DNA from: an uncultured Desulfatitalea sp.
Lineage (GTDB): Bacteria > Desulfobacterota > Desulfobacteria > Desulfobacterales > Desulfosarcinaceae
Direction: 5' to 3'
NCBI GenBank assembly: GCA_937868765.1
Contig: CALMNL010000004.1
Coordinates: forward strand, 1,686,749 to 1,750,748
Length of the DNA stretch: 64,000 nt
Shown here: in pieces, positions 39,264-58,215 of the stretch
Numbering within the stretch: the stretch's first letter is position 1
How the letters are laid out: every line of letters starts with the position of its first letter
Translations under genes and position numbers: made by a program
Notes under the pieces: model-generated
Database searches by the model: none
What the model was told of the DNA's origin: nothing
Seen by the model: the letters and a program-made list of their open reading frames with translations, nothing else

Positions 39264-40535
39264 ATGAGACGAATTATGTCTATGGCTGTTCTTTTTTGCC
39301 TTCCGCCGGTTCTTCTGATCGTAATTTTTCCAGACAACGCAAATGCCATTCCGGCATTTGCCAGAAAATACCAGACCTCATGCATGCTGTGTCATGCCCC
39401 CTTTCCCAAGCTGACAGCCATGGGGGAGTCATTCCGCCTCAATGGTTACAAACTGCCCGATGCCGACGAGATTTATGTCAAAGAGCAACCGGTATCCATG
39501 GGCGCCGAAGCCTACAAAAAGGTTTTCCCCAAAGCGGTCTGGCCGTCCAGCATCCCGGGCGTGCCGCCGATTTCCATCCGCGCCACGGGCAACGTGGCCT
39601 ACCACCCTTACGGGCCTCAGGACGGCAACAGCGATTTCAATTTTCCTTCCGAAGTAACGCTGTTAGGAGCAGGATCGTTTGAAAACGATTTTGCCTTCTT
39701 CGCCCAAATCGGTTTTGAAATAGAGGATGACACGACCACCACGACGCCGATGGCATGGCTGATGTGGCAAAATCTGTTTTCAGGAGTTATCGGCGAGCAT
39801 CACCTCGACCTCAAGGCCGGCAACGTGGGCAGACACGCGATTGCTCTGCCCAATGCCAGGAACGAAAATAACATTACCCTGGAAGACTACCTCTATGCCA
39901 CAGAACTGGACCTGGATAACCAGCCAGGATTCCAGGTGGTTGGCTATGGCCGGCATTGGCGCTATGGCGCCGGTGTTGTCGAGTCGGATCGGAAAAACAC
40001 CAATAAGGACTTTTATACGGCCTTTTCCATCAAATTCGGCGGGCTGGGCTATGACGGCTCCGGGCAGACGTCCGCCGCGGGCGGCGTCGGTACCAGCCCG
40101 GCGGGATACTGGCTGGACAATTCGGTCCAGCTCGGATTTTTTGCATACGAAGGTTATGTCGAGGAAAACGCGGACCGATTCGATCGAATCGGTGGCGATG
40201 CCCGCATCACTTATCAGAGCCTCTCTGTAGCCGGAGGATATATCACCGGTAACAACCGGCAGGCCAACGAGGACAAGCATATTTGGTTTGGCGAAGCGCA
40301 GTATTTTGTCTTCCCCTGGCTCATTCCTTACATCAGATACGAAGATATGACGGTGAAAAATGTCGATAACGCCGATCTGGCCCGATTTATCGTTGGTTCG
40401 GCCATGCTGGTGCGTGCCAACATCAGGGTCAACCTGGAGGGCAGAATATATACGACGGATCAGCCGACCGTGGCGGCTGACGGCGAAACCAAAGATGACG
40501 ATCAGATCGCCTTTTTAATCGATTGGGCGTTCTAG
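39264..40535 (+). CDS. Cyc2-like fused monoheme cytochrome c/outer-membrane porin
   Basis: The protein has 423 residues. A signal peptide (cleavage near DNANA) is followed by AIPAFARKYQTSCMLCHAPF: one heme-binding CxxCH at residues 40-44. Then comes PKLTAMGESFRLNGYKLPD, the pattern of Cyc2 iron-oxidase-type proteins (AxPxFAR...CxxCH...LxxxGxxFxxxGY). The remaining about 350 residues are beta-strand-rich with alternating aromatic residues and a C-terminal Phe (IDWAF), typical of an outer-membrane barrel. This suggests a heme plug inside a porin, moving electrons across the outer membrane. AAAAGGAG precedes the ATG. The donor (for example Fe2+) is unknown. First gene of a four-gene cluster. Confidence 0.75.
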   Translation: MRRIMSMAVLFCLPPVLLIVIFPDNANAIPAFARKYQTSCMLCHAPFPKLTAMGESFRLNGYKLPDADEIYVKEQPVSMGAEAYKKVFPKAVWPSSIPGVPPISIRATGNVAYHPYGPQDGNSDFNFPSEVTLLGAGSFENDFAFFAQIGFEIEDDTTTTTPMAWLMWQNLFSGVIGEHHLDLKAGNVGRHAIALPNARNENNITLEDYLYATELDLDNQPGFQVVGYGRHWRYGAGVVESDRKNTNKDFYTAFSIKFGGLGYDGSGQTSAAGGVGTSPAGYWLDNSVQLGFFAYEGYVEENADRFDRIGGDARITYQSLSVAGGYITGNNRQANEDKHIWFGEAQYFVFPWLIPYIRYEDMTVKNVDNADLARFIVGSAMLVRANIRVNLEGRIYTTDQPTVAADGETKDDDQIAFLIDWAF

Positions 40536-40553
40536 TAAAAGGAGGAGGATGGC

Positions 40554-41186
40554 ATGAAAAAGTCAATGAAAAGTATGGTCATCTCAGGGTTGGTTTGTAG
40601 CATCGCCCTGTGCCTCAGCTTGATTCCGCTGACGGGCCGGGCGCAACAGGACCCGGGTGGCACGATCAAGGGCACGGTCGATTCCCCCTTTGTCCAGCGA
40701 TATCAGGCGTTGGTCTATATAGACCAGGTAAAGGGAGACTTCACCCCTCCTAAAGAGAATCCCCACATGAGTCAGAAGGGATTGGTCTTCGAGCCGCACA
40801 TCTTGCCGGTCCTCAAAGGTTCCACGGTTGATTTCACCAATGACGACACCGTGTCCCACAATGTGTTTGCGCCCCCAGGCGCTGCGACCTCGTTTAATCT
40901 GGGGATATACGGGCCGGGGGTCAAAAAGACCGAGACGTTTGACACCCTGGGAGAGGTTCCCCTGCTTTGCAGTGTCCACCCGGAAATGTATGCTTACGTG
41001 ATTGTTCTGCAGAATCCCTATTTTGCCTTGACCGACGTCAACGGCGGATTTGAAATAAAAAACGTGCCGCCGGGAAGCTACCAATTGAAAATCTGGGATG
41101 AAAAACTCAAACCGGCCGCCAAACCGGTGACCGTGACGGCAGGTAAAATCACCACCGTGGAATTCAAGAATCTGGTTGAAAATTGA
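40554..41186 (+). CDS. Exported cupredoxin with type-1 copper ligands
   Basis: The protein has 210 residues; signal peptide ends near GRAQQ (residue 31). The plastocyanin-like domain has a full type-1 copper set: His102 (SHNVF), Cys139, His142 and Met145 (LLCSVHPEM). A second part (residues 155-210, ALTDVNGGFEIKNVPPGSYQL) is a carboxypeptidase-regulatory-like beta sandwich. It likely shuttles electrons in the periplasm. AAAAGGAGGAGG lies before the ATG. It starts 18 nt after the Cyc2-like gene, so they are probably co-transcribed and functionally linked. Confidence 0.85.
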   Translation: MKKSMKSMVISGLVCSIALCLSLIPLTGRAQQDPGGTIKGTVDSPFVQRYQALVYIDQVKGDFTPPKENPHMSQKGLVFEPHILPVLKGSTVDFTNDDTVSHNVFAPPGAATSFNLGIYGPGVKKTETFDTLGEVPLLCSVHPEMYAYVIVLQNPYFALTDVNGGFEIKNVPPGSYQLKIWDEKLKPAAKPVTVTAGKITTVEFKNLVEN

Positions 41187-41224
41187 AGACGGTATAAGAC
41201 ATGTTTGCTGGAAGCTTACCGGGT

Positions 41225-42040
41225 ATGACGGCCAGGAGGCACACACGTGCAGCAGTACTCCTTTGCCTGACCTTTTTGTTCGCACAGCCATGCCTTGCCG
41301 ATGAGATCGAGTTTCAAAATCCAAAAACGCCTCAAAACGGTGTCGTGGTCAAAGAGGATGCCGACAGCGTGACTATCCGGTTTCAACGACAGGTCATAAA
41401 ATCAATCACCCGGCGCGAAAGCGAGAGTTCGAGCGATCCTGGGGATCTGGTGATCTGGCAGCAGACAAAGGACTATCTTATCCTTAAAATTCCGCGCGGC
41501 AGCATTCAGATCGTGCCGCAGCAGGCCGTCCCTTCTGCCCTGCCGTCCCAACAAGAACCGGTGCCATCCGATCCATATCAAAGCAATGGCACCGGCACCG
41601 GGCATATTGGGCCGCCCGAACCCGTCGGTACCGCCGAAGCGGCTCCATCTTCGACCGCGGCAACAGATATGACGACGCAGCAATCATTGCTGCAGGAAGA
41701 GATGGGCAGTGTGCAAGGAGTGATCAAGTGGAAGAAAATGCCGCTGTCAAATGCCAGAGTGAAGATCGTTCTCGAACGCTACACGGGGTTTTCGATGGCC
41801 GCTGTTAAAAGATGGTATGAGTCCAAAGGCACCCTGCAACAGGAGGACCCATTTGCGCTGGAAACGTGCACCGACGCCACGGGGCATTATCTTTTCCCCC
41901 AGGCGCCGCCCGGATACTATCGCTTGCACTGGATGCCCGACGCAAGCACCGGCTGGGTGCACAGGCTCCGCGAAAATCCAGATCTGGAGGTAATTTCCGG
42001 AAATCGGACCATCGGAAATGTCCCCGAAAAAATGCAGTAA
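41225..42040 (+). CDS. Exported protein of the cytochrome operon, function unknown
   Basis: The protein has about 271 residues from the ATG at 41225 (with GGAAG upstream), giving a clean signal peptide, TARRHTRAAVLLCLTFLF, cleaved near CLADE; ATG 41201 is a weaker alternative. It has an SH3-like N-terminal part (NPKTPQNGVVVKEDADSVTI), a Pro/Ser/Thr-rich linker, and a C-terminal segment with a carboxypeptidase-regulatory fold (VQGVIKWKKMPLSNARVKIV, TDATGHYLFPQAPPGYYRL). No heme or copper site is seen. It may be a periplasmic scaffold or linker for its partners. The next gene starts 10 nt later. Confidence 0.6.
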   Translation: MTARRHTRAAVLLCLTFLFAQPCLADEIEFQNPKTPQNGVVVKEDADSVTIRFQRQVIKSITRRESESSSDPGDLVIWQQTKDYLILKIPRGSIQIVPQQAVPSALPSQQEPVPSDPYQSNGTGTGHIGPPEPVGTAEAAPSSTAATDMTTQQSLLQEEMGSVQGVIKWKKMPLSNARVKIVLERYTGFSMAAVKRWYESKGTLQQEDPFALETCTDATGHYLFPQAPPGYYRLHWMPDASTGWVHRLRENPDLEVISGNRTIGNVPEKMQ

Positions 42041-42050
42041 GGAGGAGATC

Positions 42051-43070
42051 ATGCGACTTAAAATGGCATCGATTTTCGGGCCGGTGTTGATTATTTGCCT
42101 GATACTGATCCTGGCCGGGATGAAACCGGCCCAGAGCCAATCGGCAGACAGACCCAAACCGGCCGCCGATGCACACGGCCACGGTCCGGGTTATGTGGTG
42201 ACCCCCGCCGTGGGTCCGGGCTGGCTCAAGCTGATCGGCATTTTCGACATCAGCATGACTCCGATGGGACAAATGGGAGGTGATGGCCCGCCTCCGGCGT
42301 CCACCAGAGTAGAACCTGAATTTCCGGTGGAAGGAGGCCCGCCACCCGGCGGCATGGGCATGGGCGGAATGATGGGAGGTAATTATTCAGGCGACCAATT
42401 CAGCGATTCGGAGTTGCGGCAGATGGGGGACGAAAAATTCGCTCTGGCCGGTTCAGATTTCTACCGTCTGGACTGCCGCGCTTGCCATGGGCCGGAAGGC
42501 CATGGCGCACCACCTGAGATCAATTCAGTAATCGGTCCAATACAGGCAACCGCTGCAGGGCTTGTCGAAGCGCGCATGAAGAAAATGGGAAGGCCGATCG
42601 GAGAAAAAATGGCCCAGGAGCTTGCCTCCCAGGCTTTGCAAAGCGTCCTTGAGCGCCTTCAAAAGGGTGGCAAGAAAATGCCCTCCTTCAGCCATCTGCA
42701 AGGCAAAGAAGTCGATACGCTGATCCAGTACCTTAAAATGCTTGTGGGCGCTCCCGCATCTCAGGCAAAATCGACTCTGGTCAGCGAAAACACCGGTCGG
42801 GTGGGCGAACACCTGGTCAAGGGCACCTGCCAGATCTGCCATGACGCAACGGGTCCGGGAATGCGGAGCGGCGGCATGATGCAGGGCATCATCCCCTCGC
42901 TTGCCAGCTTTCCCTTTGAACAGTCCATGCAAAGCATTGTCTGGCAGGTTGGATACGGATCACGCCACATGATGATGATGGGCGGGCAGCGAATGCCGGC
43001 CTACCCCTATATTACGGTGCAGGAAGCCGCCGCCGCTTATATTTATCTTGTGCGGTATCCGCCGATGTGA
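42051..43070 (+). CDS. Exported diheme c-type cytochrome
   Basis: The protein has 339 residues with an N-terminal signal or anchor helix (IFGPVLIICLILILAG). Two CxxCH sites are visible: Cys142-RA-CysHis146 and Cys260-QI-CysHis264, each in a mono-heme c domain. A Met/Gly-rich linker (GGMGMGGMMGG) lies between residues 98 and 110, and a Met-rich tail (HMMMMGGQRMP) may supply distal heme ligands or bind copper. AAGGAGGAG precedes ATG 42051; the gene ends the operon. It is a plausible periplasmic electron carrier between the Cyc2-like porin and the inner membrane. Confidence 0.85.
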   Translation: MRLKMASIFGPVLIICLILILAGMKPAQSQSADRPKPAADAHGHGPGYVVTPAVGPGWLKLIGIFDISMTPMGQMGGDGPPPASTRVEPEFPVEGGPPPGGMGMGGMMGGNYSGDQFSDSELRQMGDEKFALAGSDFYRLDCRACHGPEGHGAPPEINSVIGPIQATAAGLVEARMKKMGRPIGEKMAQELASQALQSVLERLQKGGKKMPSFSHLQGKEVDTLIQYLKMLVGAPASQAKSTLVSENTGRVGEHLVKGTCQICHDATGPGMRSGGMMQGIIPSLASFPFEQSMQSIVWQVGYGSRHMMMMGGQRMPAYPYITVQEAAAAYIYLVRYPPM

Positions 43071-44445: not shown

Positions 44446-45822
44446 CTAGACGCCGTACTCCTTGAGCTTCAACTGCAGCGTGCGGCGGCTGATGCCCAGG
44501 ATGTTCGCCGTGCGGGTGCGATTGCCGTCGTTTTCGGCCAGGGTCCGCAGTATGGTCTCCTTTTCCAGCTGCTTTAACGAGCGATCGACGGGGGGATCTA
44601 CTGCTTGAGGCGACGCTTCTTGCACATCCGGCTCCGCCGAATCCGCCTCCGGTCCCCGCAGAGGCGAAGGGAATTCTTCCGGAGTTATCCGCTGACCGCG
44701 GGCCATGATCACGGCGCGCTCGATGGCGTTTTCCAGCTCGCGGATATTACCGGGCCAGTCGTGGCGCATGAGCAGGTCCATGGCCTTGGGGGTGAATCCC
44801 TGCAAGGCTTTTTTGTTTTTTTCCGCAAAGCGTTTGAGAAAGAAATCCGCAAGCAGGGGAATGTCATCGCGTCGCTCCCGCAGGGCCGGTGCCGTCAGGC
44901 TGACCACATTGATACGGTAGTAAAGATCTTCCCTGAAGCGGTTGGCCCGGATTTCTTCCTGCAGGTTTTTATTGGTGGCGGTGACGATGCGGGTGTTCAC
45001 CTTGATGGTCTTGGCGCTGCCCACGGGCTGGAATTCGCGTTCCTGCAACACGCGCAGAATTTTGGATTGCAGCGGCAGCGGCATTTCGGCGATTTCGTCG
45101 AGGAAAATCGTTCCCTCGTCGGCCTGTTGAAAGCGCCCCTGTCTGGCGCTGAGCGCGCCTGTAAAAGCGCCCTTCTCGTGGCCGAAGAGCTCGCTTTCCA
45201 ACAACGTTTCCGGCAAGGCGGCACAATTGATTTTGATCAGCGGATGGTTCTTGCGGGGGCTGTTCTGATGAATGGCGTTGGCGATGAGCTCCTTGCCGGT
45301 ACCGCTTTCGCCCAGAATCAATATCGTGGCATCGGTGGGGGCCACCAGGGCCACGGTCTCCAGCAGTTCCTTCATTGCTTTGCTGCGGCCGATGATGTTG
45401 GCGAAATCGAACCGGCTTCCCAGTTGCTCCTTGAGCAAAAGATTCTCTTTTTCAAGCCGGGTGTGCCGCAGGGCTTTTTCGATCGACAACAAGAGTTCTT
45501 CCACATCCAGGGGCTTGGTCAGGTAGTCGTAGGCGCCGGATTTCATGGCCTTGACGGCGGAATCCACCGAAGAGTAAGCAGTCATCATGATGATGGGGAT
45601 TTCGGGATTCAAGGTCTTGATTTTATCCAGGGCTTCGATGCCGCCCATGCGCGCCATCCGGATATCCATGAGAATCAGATCGTAGAAGGTTCCCACCACG
45701 GCTTCGACCGCCGCCTGGCCGTCAGGAACGGTGGCGGTTTCATACTTCTCGGCGCTCAGCACGGCCTGGAGCATCCGGCAGTGAGTATCATCGTCATCGA
45801 CAATCAGAATTTTGGTTTGCAT
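44446..45822 (-). CDS. ZraR-like sigma-54-dependent response regulator
   Basis: The protein has 458 residues. It has a receiver (Asp in LILMDIRMAR), an AAA+ activator domain (GESGTGKE, GAFTGA, IFLDEIAEMP) and a Fis-type helix (NRTRTANILGISRRTLQLKL). The sequence resembles ZraR/HydG proteins that respond to zinc, copper or envelope stress through a partner kinase. The kinase gene ends 17 nt upstream on the same strand. It probably binds the paired palindromes at 47647-47683 in the divergent intergenic region; this is inference. Confidence 0.9.
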   Translation of the reverse strand: MQTKILIVDDDDTHCRMLQAVLSAEKYETATVPDGQAAVEAVVGTFYDLILMDIRMARMGGIEALDKIKTLNPEIPIIMMTAYSSVDSAVKAMKSGAYDYLTKPLDVEELLLSIEKALRHTRLEKENLLLKEQLGSRFDFANIIGRSKAMKELLETVALVAPTDATILILGESGTGKELIANAIHQNSPRKNHPLIKINCAALPETLLESELFGHEKGAFTGALSARQGRFQQADEGTIFLDEIAEMPLPLQSKILRVLQEREFQPVGSAKTIKVNTRIVTATNKNLQEEIRANRFREDLYYRINVVSLTAPALRERRDDIPLLADFFLKRFAEKNKKALQGFTPKAMDLLMRHDWPGNIRELENAIERAVIMARGQRITPEEFPSPLRGPEADSAEPDVQEASPQAVDPPVDRSLKQLEKETILRTLAENDGNRTRTANILGISRRTLQLKLKEYGV

Positions 45823-45839
45823 GCTGTGGGCGCTCTTTC

Positions 45840-47591
45840 TTAGGTGGCCTTGGGGAAAACCGGGTCGGCCACCGGCACCACGACGGTTATCCGGCAGCCC
45901 CTGGTTTTTCCAGGGACCGGGCTCGAAACGTGAATTTCTCCCCCTTGGTTTTCCACGATCATTTGAGCGATGGCCAGGCCCAGGCCGGTTCCCTTTTCCT
46001 TGGTGGTGAAGAAGGGATCGAAAATCCGCTTGACCCGTTCGGGAGGAATGCCGGGACCGTCATCTTCCACGCAAAGTTCGAGAAACCCGCCCTCGATGCG
46101 CGCGGCCAACCGGACGCGGCCGCCGGCCCCCACGGCCTGCAGCGCATTTAAGACCAGGTTGAGCATCACTTGCGTCATCTGGTTGCCGTCGATTTTGACC
46201 TCTTGCAGATCCTGGTCCGTCGGCAGGTCGAGTCGAATGTCGATTTTGCGGGTTCTGGCATCTTCCTCGACCAGCCGAAGGGTGTGGCCGAGAAATTCGC
46301 GGATATCCGTGGGGGTCGGCTCGGGCTGCAATGGGCGCGCGAAGGAGAGCAGGTTGGTGACCACATTGTTGATCCGATCGACCTCTTTAACCATCAGGTC
46401 GGCATATTCGCCCTCTTTGGGGCGGTCCTTGAGCACCCGTTTCAGGAACTGGGCGAATCCGCGAATGGAGCTCAGCGGATTGCGGACCTCATGGGCGATA
46501 CCCGCAGCCAATTCGCCGATGGCCGCCAGCTTCTCGCTGCGGCGCACTTTTGCCTGCAGCCGCTTGATCTCGGTCAGGTCGCGCAGTATGACGACCGCCC
46601 CGCTGTACGGCGGTTTTCTACCCGCATCGACAATGGGAGAGGCGCTCAGCGAGAGCACGAGCCGGCCGGAAGGCTTTTCATAAACGATCTCCACGTCGGT
46701 TACGGGGGTGCCGTCGGTCAGCGCCCGATCGATGCCGGAAGACTTGAAATCGAAGATGGATTGCAGATTGAGCTGACTGATATCTTTGGCGTCGATTCCC
46801 AGCAGACGCTCGGCGGCATCGTTGATCGTGATGATGTTGCCCGTGGCATCGATACTCAACAGGCCGTTGGCCATGCTGGCCATGACCAGTTTCAAATAAT
46901 CGCGGCTCTTGTCCAGGGCCCTGTCCACCAGATAATAGTTCTGGATCACGAAAACAAAGAAAAGTGCACCGCTGCCCAGTACCAGCAAAATCGCGCCCAT
47001 GATGAACGCGTGCTGCAGATCCGCCCTGTGAGCCATTTCGACTTCCGCCATGCTCAATCCCAGCACTACCGTATCGCCCATGTGGTGAGAGCGCATCATC
47101 CCCAGGCCGCCGGCCTCCGGCAAACTTTGACCGTATGGGCCAACAGGCGGCGGCAAAAAACGTTTGGCCAGTTCATACACCTGGCGCCCGGCCGCGTTTT
47201 TATGCTGGCGGGAGATGATCTGCTGGTCATCCTCCAGTACCGGTCGCCATTCGGCCAATGTGCCCGCCAGGGAGGCGGGCGAAGCATGGGTAATTCGCCC
47301 ATCTGCGCCGAAGATATAGAGGTAGACAAGATTTTTGCTTTTACCGAACTCCTCGATCAGGACCTTTATAGCGTCCTGCGTCCACATAGGCGTATGGGTG
47401 CCCGCCAAAACAGCGGCCTCCAATGACTGCAATATCGTGACGCCCTGGCTGTTCAAAAAGGCCAGAGCGGTTTGCCGCTGGCGGGAAAGGGTCCTGACGG
47501 TCGAAACGGCGATGATCAGAATTAATGACAAAACAACGGCAATCAGCGTTAAGGCAGGTAGATAAAGTTTTTTATTGCTGAGGAATCGCAT
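45840..47591 (-). CDS. ZraS-like membrane sensor histidine kinase
   Basis: The protein has 583 residues from the ATG at 47591. TM1 spans about residues 11-28 (LTLIAVVLSLILIIAVST), the periplasmic sensor about 30-195 (with GMMRSHHMGDTVVLG, His/Met-rich and possibly metal-binding), and TM2 about 197-218. A PAS domain, then the kinase core with H-box IAHEVRNPLSSIRGFAQFL and G boxes VEDDGPGIPPE and GTGLGLAI, follow. The periplasmic architecture fits metal or envelope stress sensing. It is followed by the regulator and the HExxH membrane protein. Upstream in-frame codons to 47708 lack a ribosome site. Confidence 0.88.
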   Translation of the reverse strand: MRFLSNKKLYLPALTLIAVVLSLILIIAVSTVRTLSRQRQTALAFLNSQGVTILQSLEAAVLAGTHTPMWTQDAIKVLIEEFGKSKNLVYLYIFGADGRITHASPASLAGTLAEWRPVLEDDQQIISRQHKNAAGRQVYELAKRFLPPPVGPYGQSLPEAGGLGMMRSHHMGDTVVLGLSMAEVEMAHRADLQHAFIMGAILLVLGSGALFFVFVIQNYYLVDRALDKSRDYLKLVMASMANGLLSIDATGNIITINDAAERLLGIDAKDISQLNLQSIFDFKSSGIDRALTDGTPVTDVEIVYEKPSGRLVLSLSASPIVDAGRKPPYSGAVVILRDLTEIKRLQAKVRRSEKLAAIGELAAGIAHEVRNPLSSIRGFAQFLKRVLKDRPKEGEYADLMVKEVDRINNVVTNLLSFARPLQPEPTPTDIREFLGHTLRLVEEDARTRKIDIRLDLPTDQDLQEVKIDGNQMTQVMLNLVLNALQAVGAGGRVRLAARIEGGFLELCVEDDGPGIPPERVKRIFDPFFTTKEKGTGLGLAIAQMIVENQGGEIHVSSPVPGKTRGCRITVVVPVADPVFPKAT

Positions 47592-47646
47592 GCGGAAACC
47601 ATGCCTTGAACGAGATGGCTCGAGCCGGTCAAAACGCCATAACCGG

Positions 47647-47683
47647 TGTGAAAAAAATTCACAGTCTGTGTAAGAAGTAACAC
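47647..47683. promoter_or_regulatory. Tandem activator sites (TGTGNA-N5-TNACAC type)
   Basis: Site 1 is TGTGAA-AAAAA-TTCACA (47647-47663), an exact palindrome. Site 2 is TGTGTA-AGAAG-TAACAC (47667-47683), the same geometry with one change. Centres are 20 bp apart, about two helical turns. They lie about 45 to 80 bp upstream of the sigma-54 element at 47726 and 56 to 92 bp upstream of the kinase start on the other strand. Confidence 0.6.
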
Positions 47684-47725
47684 CGAACCTGCTTCGTTTC
47701 AACCCCAATTCGGGATGAGCCTTCC

Positions 47726-55667: not shown

Positions 55668-58126
55668 CTACAGTTTGACTTTCCGCAGCCGCAGTGCATT
55701 GCCCACCACCGATACCGAACTGAAGCTCATGGCGGCGGCCGCGATCATGGGCGAGAGCAGCAGCCCGAACAGCGGGTAGAGCACGCCGGCGGCGATGGGG
55801 ATGCCCAGCGCGTTGTAGATAAATGCAAAAAACAAATTCTGCTTGATGTTGCGCATCGTGGCTCGGGAGAGCAGGCGGGCGCGCACGATGCCGCGTAGAT
55901 CGCCTTTGACCAGCGTGACCCGGGCGCTCTCCATGGCCACGTCGGTGCCGGTGCCCATGGCGATGCCCACCTCAGCCTGGGCCAGGGCCGGTGCGTCGTT
56001 GATGCCGTCGCCGGCCATGGCCACCACCTGACCTTCCCGCTGGAAACGCTTGACCGCTTCGGCCTTGTCTTCCGGCAGGACATCGGCCACGAAATCGTCG
56101 ATCCCCAGTTTGGCCGCCACGGCCTTGGCGGTGGTGCGGTTGTCGCCGGTCAGCATGACAATGCGAATGTTCTCGGCGTGCAGCCTTTCAATGGCCTCGG
56201 GCGTGGTGGCCTTGATTGGGTCGGACACGCCCACCAGCCCGGCGGCCTTGCCGTCTACGGCCAGATACATCACGGTGCGGCCGTCGGCCCGCAGCTGATC
56301 GGCCTTGGCTTCCAGTCCGTCCAAGGAGACATGGTGTTCATCGAGCAGCTGGGCATTGCCCAAAAGGACGCTGTGATTCTGAATGCTGCCCGAAACCCCC
56401 CGGCCCGTATGGGATTCGAAATCGGCAGCCTCACTCAGCGCCAGGCCTTTTTCCTGCGCGCCGCTGACAATGGCGGTGGCCAGCGGATGCTCGCTGGCTC
56501 GCTCGAGGCCGGCGGCCAGTTGCAGCACATCGTTGGCCTGCCATCCTTGGGCCGCGGCCACATCGGTCAGTCGCGGTTTGCCCTCGGTCAGGGTGCCGGT
56601 CTTGTCGACCACCAAAGTATTCACCTTGCGCAGGGTTTCGATGGACTCGGCATCCTTGAACAATACCCCGAACGCAGCGCCTTTGCCCGTCGCCACCATG
56701 ATGGACATGGGCGTGGCCAGTCCCAAGGCGCAGGGGCAAGCGATGATCAACACGGAGACCGCCACCACCAGGGCATAGGCCATGCGCGGTTCGGGGCCGA
56801 TGAGCGCCCAGACGACAAAGGCGATTGCCGCCGCGGCGACCACCGCCGGCACGAAGTAGGAAGCCACGAGGTCGGCCAGCTTCTGGATCGGTGCCCGGCT
56901 GCGCTGGGCTTCGGCCACCAGGTGCACGATCTGTGACAGCACGGTGTCGGCCCCGATCTTCTCGGCCTCGATGACCAGGGCGCCGGTCGTGTTGACCGTG
57001 GCGCCGATGACCCTGGCATCCTTTTTCTTTTCTACCGCAATGGGCTCGCCGGTGATCATCGACTCATCCACATGGCTGGCGCCTTCGACAACGGTGCCGT
57101 CCACGGGGATCCTTTCACCGGGCCGGACCCGCAGTTTGTCGCCCACCCGAACCTGCTCCAACGGCACATCTTCTTCCGTGCCGTCCGCTTTGATGCGGCG
57201 CGCGGTTTTGGGCGCCAGTCCCAGCAGTGCCTTGATGGCTGCGCCCGTACGGCTGCGGGCGCGCTGTTCGAGCATCTGGCCCAGCAGCACCAGGGTGACG
57301 ATGACCGCCGCCGCTTCAAAGTAGACGCCCACCGTGCCGTCTGCGGTTCTGAACGATGCCGGGAAGATCTCCGGGAACAACAGGGCCACCACGCTGTACA
57401 CGTAGGCCACGGCCGTGCCCAGTCCGATGAGGGTGAACATGTTCAGGTTCCAGGTGACCACCGATTTCCAGGCGCGCACGTAAAAGGTCCACCCCCCCAG
57501 AGCACCACCGGGGTCGCCAGAAAGAATTCCGTCCAGTGCAGCGTTTCGGGTCCGAAAAGCCGCTCCAGAACGCCTAATCCCAACATGTCCCGCATGGCAA
57601 TGAGCAACAGCGGCAGGCTCAGGACAACGCCGACCCAGAACCGGTTGCGCATATAAAGATATTCGCGGTTTTCCTCTTCTTCCGGCAATTCCGCGCCGCG
57701 CGGTTCCAGGGCCATGCCGCACTTGGGACAGCTGCCGGGCTCGTCCCGGATCACTTCGGGGTGCATGGGGCAGGTCCATTGGACCTTTCCCGCGGACGCC
57801 CGGGGCATTCGCGGCTCGAGCGCCATGCCGCACTTGGGGCAGGTGCCGGGCCCTTGCTGCTCTACTTCGGGGTGCATCGGGCAGGTGTAGACACCGGGCT
57901 CTTGGGCGTGCGTCTTGTGTACCCGGGGGTGTTCCGCTCCCGTGCTCTTCTTGATAAATTGCCCGGGCTCGGATTTAAACTTCTGCAGACAATGCGCACT
58001 GCAGAAGTAATAACTGTGCCCGTCCACTTCGTATGAGAGCTCATCAGAGGGATTGTCCACGGTCATGCCGCAGACTGGATCGATAACCGGCGCCTCAATG
58101 GTTTCTCCTGAATGTTGATGTTGCAT
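55668..58126 (-). CDS. P1B-type copper/heavy-metal ATPase, reading frame broken at a G7 run
   Basis: Start ATG 58126 (GAGGAGGAG upstream). The first part has a YHS domain ([28 protein letters not shown]) and two copies of a CPMHPEV...[10 protein letters not shown] metal-binding domain, then TM helices. At 57492-57498 the minus strand has seven G; adding one G would join the frame to the P-type core, which reads from the next frame: [13 protein letters not shown] (metal site), [41 protein letters not shown]. The whole would be about 819 residues and would export Cu+ or a related ion. Either a sequencing or mutational indel, or frameshifting at the G-run. Followed 24 nt on by the HSP90-like gene. 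Confidence 0.8.
57492..57498 (-). repeat. Run of seven G at the frame break
   Basis: On the minus strand the frame reads TGG GGG GGT GGA, then stops at 57443-57445. It also fits the -1 slippery pattern G-GGG-GGT. Eight G in place of seven would keep the ATPase frame open. Confidence 0.7.
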
Positions 58127-58178
58127 CACCACTCCTCCTCTCTGCGACCACACCGCCTGTCGACCGGACAGGGACGTC

Positions 58179-58215
58179 TTCATTGCCTTAAGTGGTAACC
58201 ATCTTAAAGTTCATC
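58179..58215. promoter_or_regulatory. Imperfect palindrome upstream of the P-type ATPase
   Basis: CTTAAGTGGTAACCATCTTAAAG is an imperfect inverted repeat centred on TGGTAACCA, 53 nt upstream of the ATPase start. It might bind a metal-responsive regulator, but no CueR/CsoR consensus was matched with certainty. Confidence 0.25.

Follow-up and report, generated by a model that had tools for sequence, protein, structure and literature searches.

A Cyc2-type heme-porin gene recurrently linked to a cupredoxin gene, from a four-gene cluster of an uncultured Desulfatitalea

Four open reading frames (ORFs) for secreted proteins, here called P1 to P4, lie on the + strand between positions 39264 and 43070 of a 64,000-nucleotide stretch of the genome of an uncultured Desulfatitalea sp. 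(assembly GCA_937868765.1, contig CALMNL010000004.1, positions 1,686,749 to 1,750,748), hereafter called the window. P1 (39264..40535, 423 amino acids, aa) is a predicted Cyc2-type monoheme cytochrome-porin, P2 (40554..41186, 210 aa) a type-1 cupredoxin with a C-terminal CarboxypepD_reg-like domain, P3 (41225..42040, alternative start 41201) a protein with a C-terminal CarboxypepD_reg-like region that holds a GWVHRLRENPDLEV motif, and P4 (42051..43070, alternative start 42018) a diheme class-I c-type cytochrome with an N-terminal region rich in Met, Gly and Pro. If 41225 and 42051 are taken as the starts of P3 and P4, each of which then opens with a plausible signal peptide, the genes are separated by 18, 38 and 10 nucleotides (nt), as the first-pass annotation of this DNA had reported. 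Inspection by eye finds in each of the four proteins a basic, hydrophobic leader and a plausible cleavage site; it also finds AGGAG-type ribosome sites before P1, P2 and P4, again as first described, and no obvious one before P3. Among the window ORFs of at least 100 aa, CXXCH occurs in P1 and P4 only, and none was found with more than two such sites. The cluster seems more than a chance assembly, since P1 is predicted to be a 16-strand porin, P2 passes the Pfam cut-off for Copper-bind and P4 passes that for Cytochrome_CBB3.

The published criteria for Cyc2, as set out in the available part of Keffer 2021 (PMC8406198), are a motif AXPXFAR[Q/K][T/Y], one CXXCH, PXL four residues downstream, a length of more than 365 aa, and 16 strands forming an OprP/OprO-like barrel. 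P1 is composed of a signal peptide, the segment AIPAFARKY...CMLCHAPFPKL, a Trp-containing insert after the heme site (about residues 70-100), a predicted 16-strand barrel and a hydrophobic C-terminus (...AFLIDWAF) that ends in Phe. It carries AIPAFARKYQTSCMLCH, and its single CXXCH is located in AIPAFARKYQTSCMLCHAPFPKL. The motif upstream of the heme site (AIPAFARKY-QTS-CMLCH) satisfies a strict regular expression, PXL stands at the expected distance (CMLCH-APF-PKL), and the length, 423 aa, lies above a threshold applied here as at least 365 aa. The AlphaFold2 model is a 16-strand fused barrel whose top structure matches are OprP/OprO, tied with OmpU. The identification of P1 as a Cyc2-type heme-porin, already suggested by the first-pass annotation, is thus supported by every published sequence criterion tried and by the predicted barrel. 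P1 has no match in Pfam or NCBIfam, and no match to it was found on plasmids.

P2 holds all four type-1 copper ligands (His102, Cys139, His142 and Met145) and passes the Pfam cut-offs for both Copper-bind and CarboxypepD_reg. Its AlphaFold2 model has a mean pLDDT (predicted local distance difference test) of 89.6, and its Protein Data Bank matches include amicyanin/plastocyanin. Sequence and model together identify P2 as a type-1 cupredoxin that carries a CarboxypepD-like domain. An alignment of 18 P2 sequences shows no variation at Cys139, His142 or Met145; the P2 row of L026 has a false N-terminal extension. The position of His102 is occupied by Asn in four of the 18 (L014, L015, L016 and L024); the copper site may differ in these four, where sensor kinases follow P2. 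P2 relatives were detected at 1e-8 in 25 of 395 phylum genomes, a set that includes the window's own genome. Six non-self matches were better than 1e-40, four of which adjoin P1 (in G177, G190, G131 and G264) and two of which do not (G184 and G409, loci L153 and L154). The P2 relative of G409 (L154, on C70) lies just 3' of two ORFs, one oxidoreductase-like and 893 aa long, the other of 194 aa, each assessed from its first 50 residues only; this context hints at a use of the cupredoxin in other systems as well.

The third and fourth genes are less widespread. P3 has a weak CarboxypepD_reg match (E 0.007, below the Pfam cut-off); the label 'scaffold-like' is a guess, and the protein is perhaps a periplasmic spacer. 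It was found at 1e-4 in 3 of the 395 phylum genomes, namely its own, G177 and G131, and the gene order P1-P2-P3 is kept in the latter two, which are other Desulfobacterota. More distant P3-like proteins are encoded near P1-P2 in L011 and L022. P4 has two CXXCH, in agreement with its first description as a diheme protein, and passes the Pfam cut-offs for Cytochrome_CBB3 and Cytochrom_C, its only Pfam matches; NCBIfam gave general c-type models only, below cut-off. No relative of P4 was found in the 96 other near relatives at 1e-5 or in the 394 other phylum genomes at 1e-8.

The P1 family was sampled with a one-pattern peptide scan of named genomes, from which the best 80 of 110 loci were taken, so that the sample is biased. 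P1 was also searched in 97 near relatives and in the 395 phylum genomes, with matches in 5 of the former at 1e-3 and 31 of the latter at 1e-5, the own genome being included in both. By P1 and P2 profiles, a P2 gene lies near P1 (within 4 kb, the largest gap seen being about 2.2 kb) in 22 of 86 rows, the window included; P2 is absent from 49 rows with enough flanking DNA, and 15 are undecidable. Contigs fetched twice (L012/L007, L013/L009, L022/L008 and L024/L157) were counted once in the linkage, tree and flank counts, and near-copies (L020/L021, L025/L083, L056/L065 and L066/L069) were counted as separate rows. The start codons of the relatives are uncurated, and some neighbourhood gene calls are longest ORFs, in places on the wrong strand in loci of high G+C content.

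P2 lies directly 3' of P1 in 18 of the 21 linked relatives; one gene separates the two in L020 and L021, and in L018 P2 is found about 2.2 kb upstream. The five non-self P1 matches better than 1e-35 in the phylum genomes include four with P2 adjacent, and the fifth, in G288, reaches a contig end. Among the near relatives, the four non-self matches have P2 adjacent in G024, which is of the host's family, and in G041 and G086, and not at the weak match in G006. The latter genome, of the same genus as the host, encodes at L010:537-1880 a Cyc2-like protein whose motif takes the QT form (ARQTGMACNLCH); this protein is far from P1 on the tree and has no P2 nearby. The nearest relative is L151 (G177), whose P1 and P2 are 54% and 65% identical to those of the window. 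P1-P2 is therefore a recurrent core that P3 joins in few relatives, and the four-gene set is local. The co-conservation outside this genome proposed for the four genes as a unit thus holds for P1-P2 and, narrowly, for P3, and fails for P4, found only here. Judged from titles and the beginnings of abstracts, which makes for a weak absence, no publication was recognised as describing a P1-P2 or P1-P2-P3 module.

The linked porins are related to each other beyond their shared neighbour. In a tree of 80 P1 rows, the P2 label needs two changes among the decidable rows, and a 26-row group (Shimodaira-Hasegawa-like approximate likelihood ratio test support 92) comprises all 22 linked rows together with the unlinked L030, L032 and L053 and the undecided L027. 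The linked rows alone are rejected as a single clade (p 9e-5), L027 nesting among them; the linked rows plus L027, which was added after this first rejection, are not rejected (p 0.41). The record titles place the linked rows in Desulfobacterota, Hydrogenedentota, Acidobacteriota, Ignavibacteriota, Zixibacteria and Bacteroidota. A Trp-Pro or Trp-Asn pair occurs 25-75 residues past the heme in 22/22 linked P1 proteins versus 4/49 unlinked ones. The corresponding figures are 12/22 versus 24/49 for the strict Cyc2 regular expression and 22/22 versus 46/49 for a looser form.

What surrounds the porin gene also differs between the two sets. Downstream of P1-P2-P3 in L151, the same strand encodes a Rieske protein, a cytochrome b, a protein with eight hemes and a cytochrome with one; a gene for a heavy-metal P-type ATPase comes next. 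Profiles detect Rieske in 10, cytochrome b in 10 and octaheme proteins in 11 of the 21 linked loci, and each of the three in 1 of the 49 unlinked loci, the same one (L071); the flank profile counts carry no correction for contig ends, and the seed loci of the Rieske, cytochrome b, octaheme and P3 profiles are themselves included in the counts (they make up four of the five P3 positives). Conversely, a protein with at least four hemes is encoded immediately upstream of P1 in 28/49 unlinked loci (for example L033, L035:4206-5618 and L038) versus 1/21 linked loci, and three sampled proteins of this kind match Pfam Cytochrome_C554 among other multiheme models. It is the immediate upstream position that separates the two sets, since a protein with at least four hemes occurs anywhere in the flanks of 12/21 linked and 35/49 unlinked loci. 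The periplasmic partner of the P1-type porin thus tends to be of either of two kinds. Other surroundings are seen at individual linked loci: a COX2-plus-cytochrome fusion is encoded in L012 and L013 together with a large membrane protein (with Fer4_5 in L013 and no Pfam match in L012), and in L018 the neighbour of P1 is a protein with five hemes. The Rieske, cytochrome b and octaheme genes found with about half of the linked pairs support the electron-transfer role in the envelope that was first assigned to the cluster.

No match to cytochrome b (PF00033) was found in the host genome, in a search that detected 8 of 14 controls, and the cytochrome b of L011 and the octaheme protein of L151 found nothing as queries, in runs without detected controls; these empty searches led to the rejection of a quinone-linked complex elsewhere in the host. 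Three heme-copper oxidase (COX1) matches are present, on C7, on C9 and on C4, in the last case at a place not covered by the window. Of the three, one adjoins a CyoA-like subunit, as seen by eye, one adjoins a FixO/CBB3 protein, and one is, also by eye, NOR-like.

The known counterpart is the rus operon of Acidithiobacillus, in which, according to the available parts of PMC10654088 and PMC5982212, the chain runs through Cyc2, rusticyanin/cup and a diheme Cyc1 (c4) to an aa3 oxidase. The same trio of Cyc2-type porin, cupredoxin and diheme cytochrome is encoded together here, so that the first-pass statement that no set of this composition had been described was too strong. The present cluster differs from the rus operon, as listed in those papers, in having P3, in the extra CarboxypepD-like domain of P2, and in lacking oxidase genes, the host COX1 matches all lying outside the window. 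The rus diheme protein is a cytochrome c4. The matches of P4, to Cytochrome_CBB3 and Cytochrom_C among the Pfam models and, below cut-off, to general c-type models of NCBIfam, neither mark it as a c4 nor speak against one. Set beside the Cyc2 family as outlined in the available part of PMC8406198, P1 is alike in motif, single CXXCH, PXL, length, 16 strands and likeness to OprP/OprO; it differs in the KY form of the motif, in the Trp-containing insert and in belonging to a branch paired with a cupredoxin. The Rieske/cytochrome b complexes with multiheme c subunits, encoded beside roughly half of the linked P1-P2 pairs (such as those of L151, L022, L023, L025 and L028), are absent from this window, and cytochrome b was not found in this genome. 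MtrAB, MtoAB and PioAB likewise transfer electrons through an outer-membrane barrel, but with a separate decaheme-type cytochrome and about 26 strands, as far as the available text of PMC10654088 goes. With 16 predicted strands, one fused heme and no window ORF of at least 100 aa that has more than two CXXCH, the present cluster does not fit the MtrAB type.

The P1-P2 pair probably transfers electrons between the cell and a partner outside it. I favour, with some confidence, a scheme in which electrons would be relayed across the outer membrane, with P1-P2-P3 as the outer half of the relay and P4 as the periplasmic acceptor or donor of this host. The small N-terminal heme domain of P1 would plug the barrel, with the heme seated inside it, and would react there with a redox ion in solution, the likeliest being Fe(II)/Fe(III). 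P2 would dock on the periplasmic side of P1, perhaps on the Trp-containing insert, and serve as a one-electron carrier linking P1 with a periplasmic cytochrome; P3 may hold or space the carriers. In about half of the P2-linked relatives, the inner part would be a Rieske/cytochrome b/octaheme complex connected with the quinone pool; here it would be the diheme P4. Inward flow, from an outside donor through P1, P2 and P4 to an oxidase, is slightly more likely than outward flow in this host, because the latter lacks a cytochrome b match and has a cbb3-like oxidase. Without a Rieske/cytochrome b complex, the cupredoxin and P4 could feed that oxidase, much as Cyc2, rusticyanin and the diheme cytochrome act in Acidithiobacillus in the account available from PMC5982212.

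Several observations weigh against this scheme. The confidence of the P1 model is low in the heme domain (pLDDT 60-67 for residues 31-50). P2 is found without P1 in L153 and L154. P4 is found only in its own genome, so that its part rests on adjacency and heme content. Eight of the 21 linked relatives (L012-L016, L018, L024 and L156) have no Rieske, cytochrome b or octaheme match in the available DNA; in five of the eight (L014, L015, L016, L024 and L156) sensor kinase genes come after P2 instead, so that a role in sensing is possible. Finally, a group of genes for an HMA protein, a cupredoxin-like protein and a P-type ATPase 5-15 kb downstream in the window allows a role in metal stress.

The electrons might flow the other way, from periplasmic cytochromes through P2 and P1 to dissolved Fe(III), Mn species or a shuttle, with quinol as the source in the relatives that have Rieske and cytochrome b genes. 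Geothrix is known for Fe(III) reduction, and two Geothrix strains (L025 and L083) carry P1-P2 with Rieske/cytochrome b/octaheme genes; in the 10 to 11 of 21 linked loci that have them, these complexes can run from quinol outward. This host, however, has no cytochrome b match, and the high potential usual for cupredoxins suits an oxidase better. According to the abstract of PMC8406198, measurements on the Cyc2 of Mariprofundus showed it to be an iron oxidase and gave its potential as 208 mV. An outward relay is possible, if on the improbable side.

A narrower alternative concerns P4, which could be an unrelated neighbour serving another periplasmic pathway, P1-P2-P3 being the functional unit. 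Its lack of relatives in the 394 and 96 other genomes searched speaks for this. The 10-nt gap, the common strand and the ribosome site of its own speak for a connection, as does a small monoheme cytochrome family in the flanks of at least 6 of 23 core loci (class-I c by Pfam in L151 and L022). A weak match of P4 to the octaheme proteins (phmmer 3.4e-5, 18 bits by profile) points the same way, though it may reflect generic class-I c similarity. I regard an unrelated P4 as unlikely. For its part, the idea that P4 is a cut-down octaheme protein is not claimed here, since these scores, and blastp pieces at E about 3e-4, may have the same generic origin.

The genes downstream of P4 bear on the remaining alternative, a response to metal or envelope stress or redox sensing, in which P1 and P2 would bind or oxidise a metal such as Cu(I) or Fe(II) at the envelope, or pass a redox signal to a sensor kinase, without conserving energy. 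An NtrC regulator/kinase pair is encoded at 44446-47708. Regulators like that of the window (E below 1e-60) are found in the flanks of 8/21 linked versus 3/49 unlinked loci, and kinases like that of the window (E below 1e-15) in 10/21 versus 6/49. The window regulator is also the best of 137 own-genome matches to the regulator of L018, with 518 bits versus 479 for the next. On the + strand, sigma-54-like sites precede an HMA-domain gene (48348, 11/12 consensus bases), an ICMT gene (43356, 10/12) and a response regulator gene (47725, 9/12). No good site was found before P1 in the window, the best having 7/12 consensus bases, and among 19 relatives scanned only L022, L023 and L029 reach 10-11/12 before P1, with L011 at 9/12; the window as a whole holds 68 sigma-54-like sites against 69 expected, which is chance level. 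Control of P1 by the neighbouring two-component system is accordingly not claimed, in view of the missing site and the thin margin of the L018 match, and was kept as an alternative because regulators and kinases are commoner near linked P1 genes. The P-type ATPase region on the - strand (55668-58183) contains a 721-aa ORF whose N-terminal part is apparently out of frame, as judged by eye, and which overlaps a 246-aa ORF read in another frame (57443-58183); this suggests a frameshift or sequencing error. Even with this metal-related gene group and the heavy-metal ATPase gene that adjoins the L151 module, stress or sensing is distinctly unlikely as the main role, given that the sigma-54-like sites precede the HMA, ICMT and regulator genes and not P1, that NtrC proteins and kinases are numerous, that a regulator next to a respiratory gene set is ordinary, and that linkage to Rieske, cytochrome b and octaheme genes points to respiration.

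The function of divergent Cyc2 homologues, notably those of Cluster 3, is called most uncertain in PMC8406198. A recurrent partner gene gives a handle on them: one branch is recognisable by the cupredoxin, the other often by a multiheme cytochrome, and the nearby Rieske and cytochrome b genes tie the cupredoxin branch to the quinone pool. This bears on the reading of cyc2 matches in metagenomes as a sign of iron oxidation, since Fe(II) oxidation is not to be inferred from the gene alone. A bolder and rather doubtful hypothesis is that a phylum-spanning branch of Cyc2 is wired to a dedicated cupredoxin via a branch-specific docking insert, the other branch having a multiheme cytochrome in the place of the cupredoxin. 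The pair would then be an outer-membrane plug-in joined to differing inner parts, a quinone-linked Rieske/cytochrome b/octaheme complex in some bacteria and here a new diheme cytochrome feeding an oxygen reductase. If this were true, the host would live by oxidising iron although its family is known rather for reducing sulfate.

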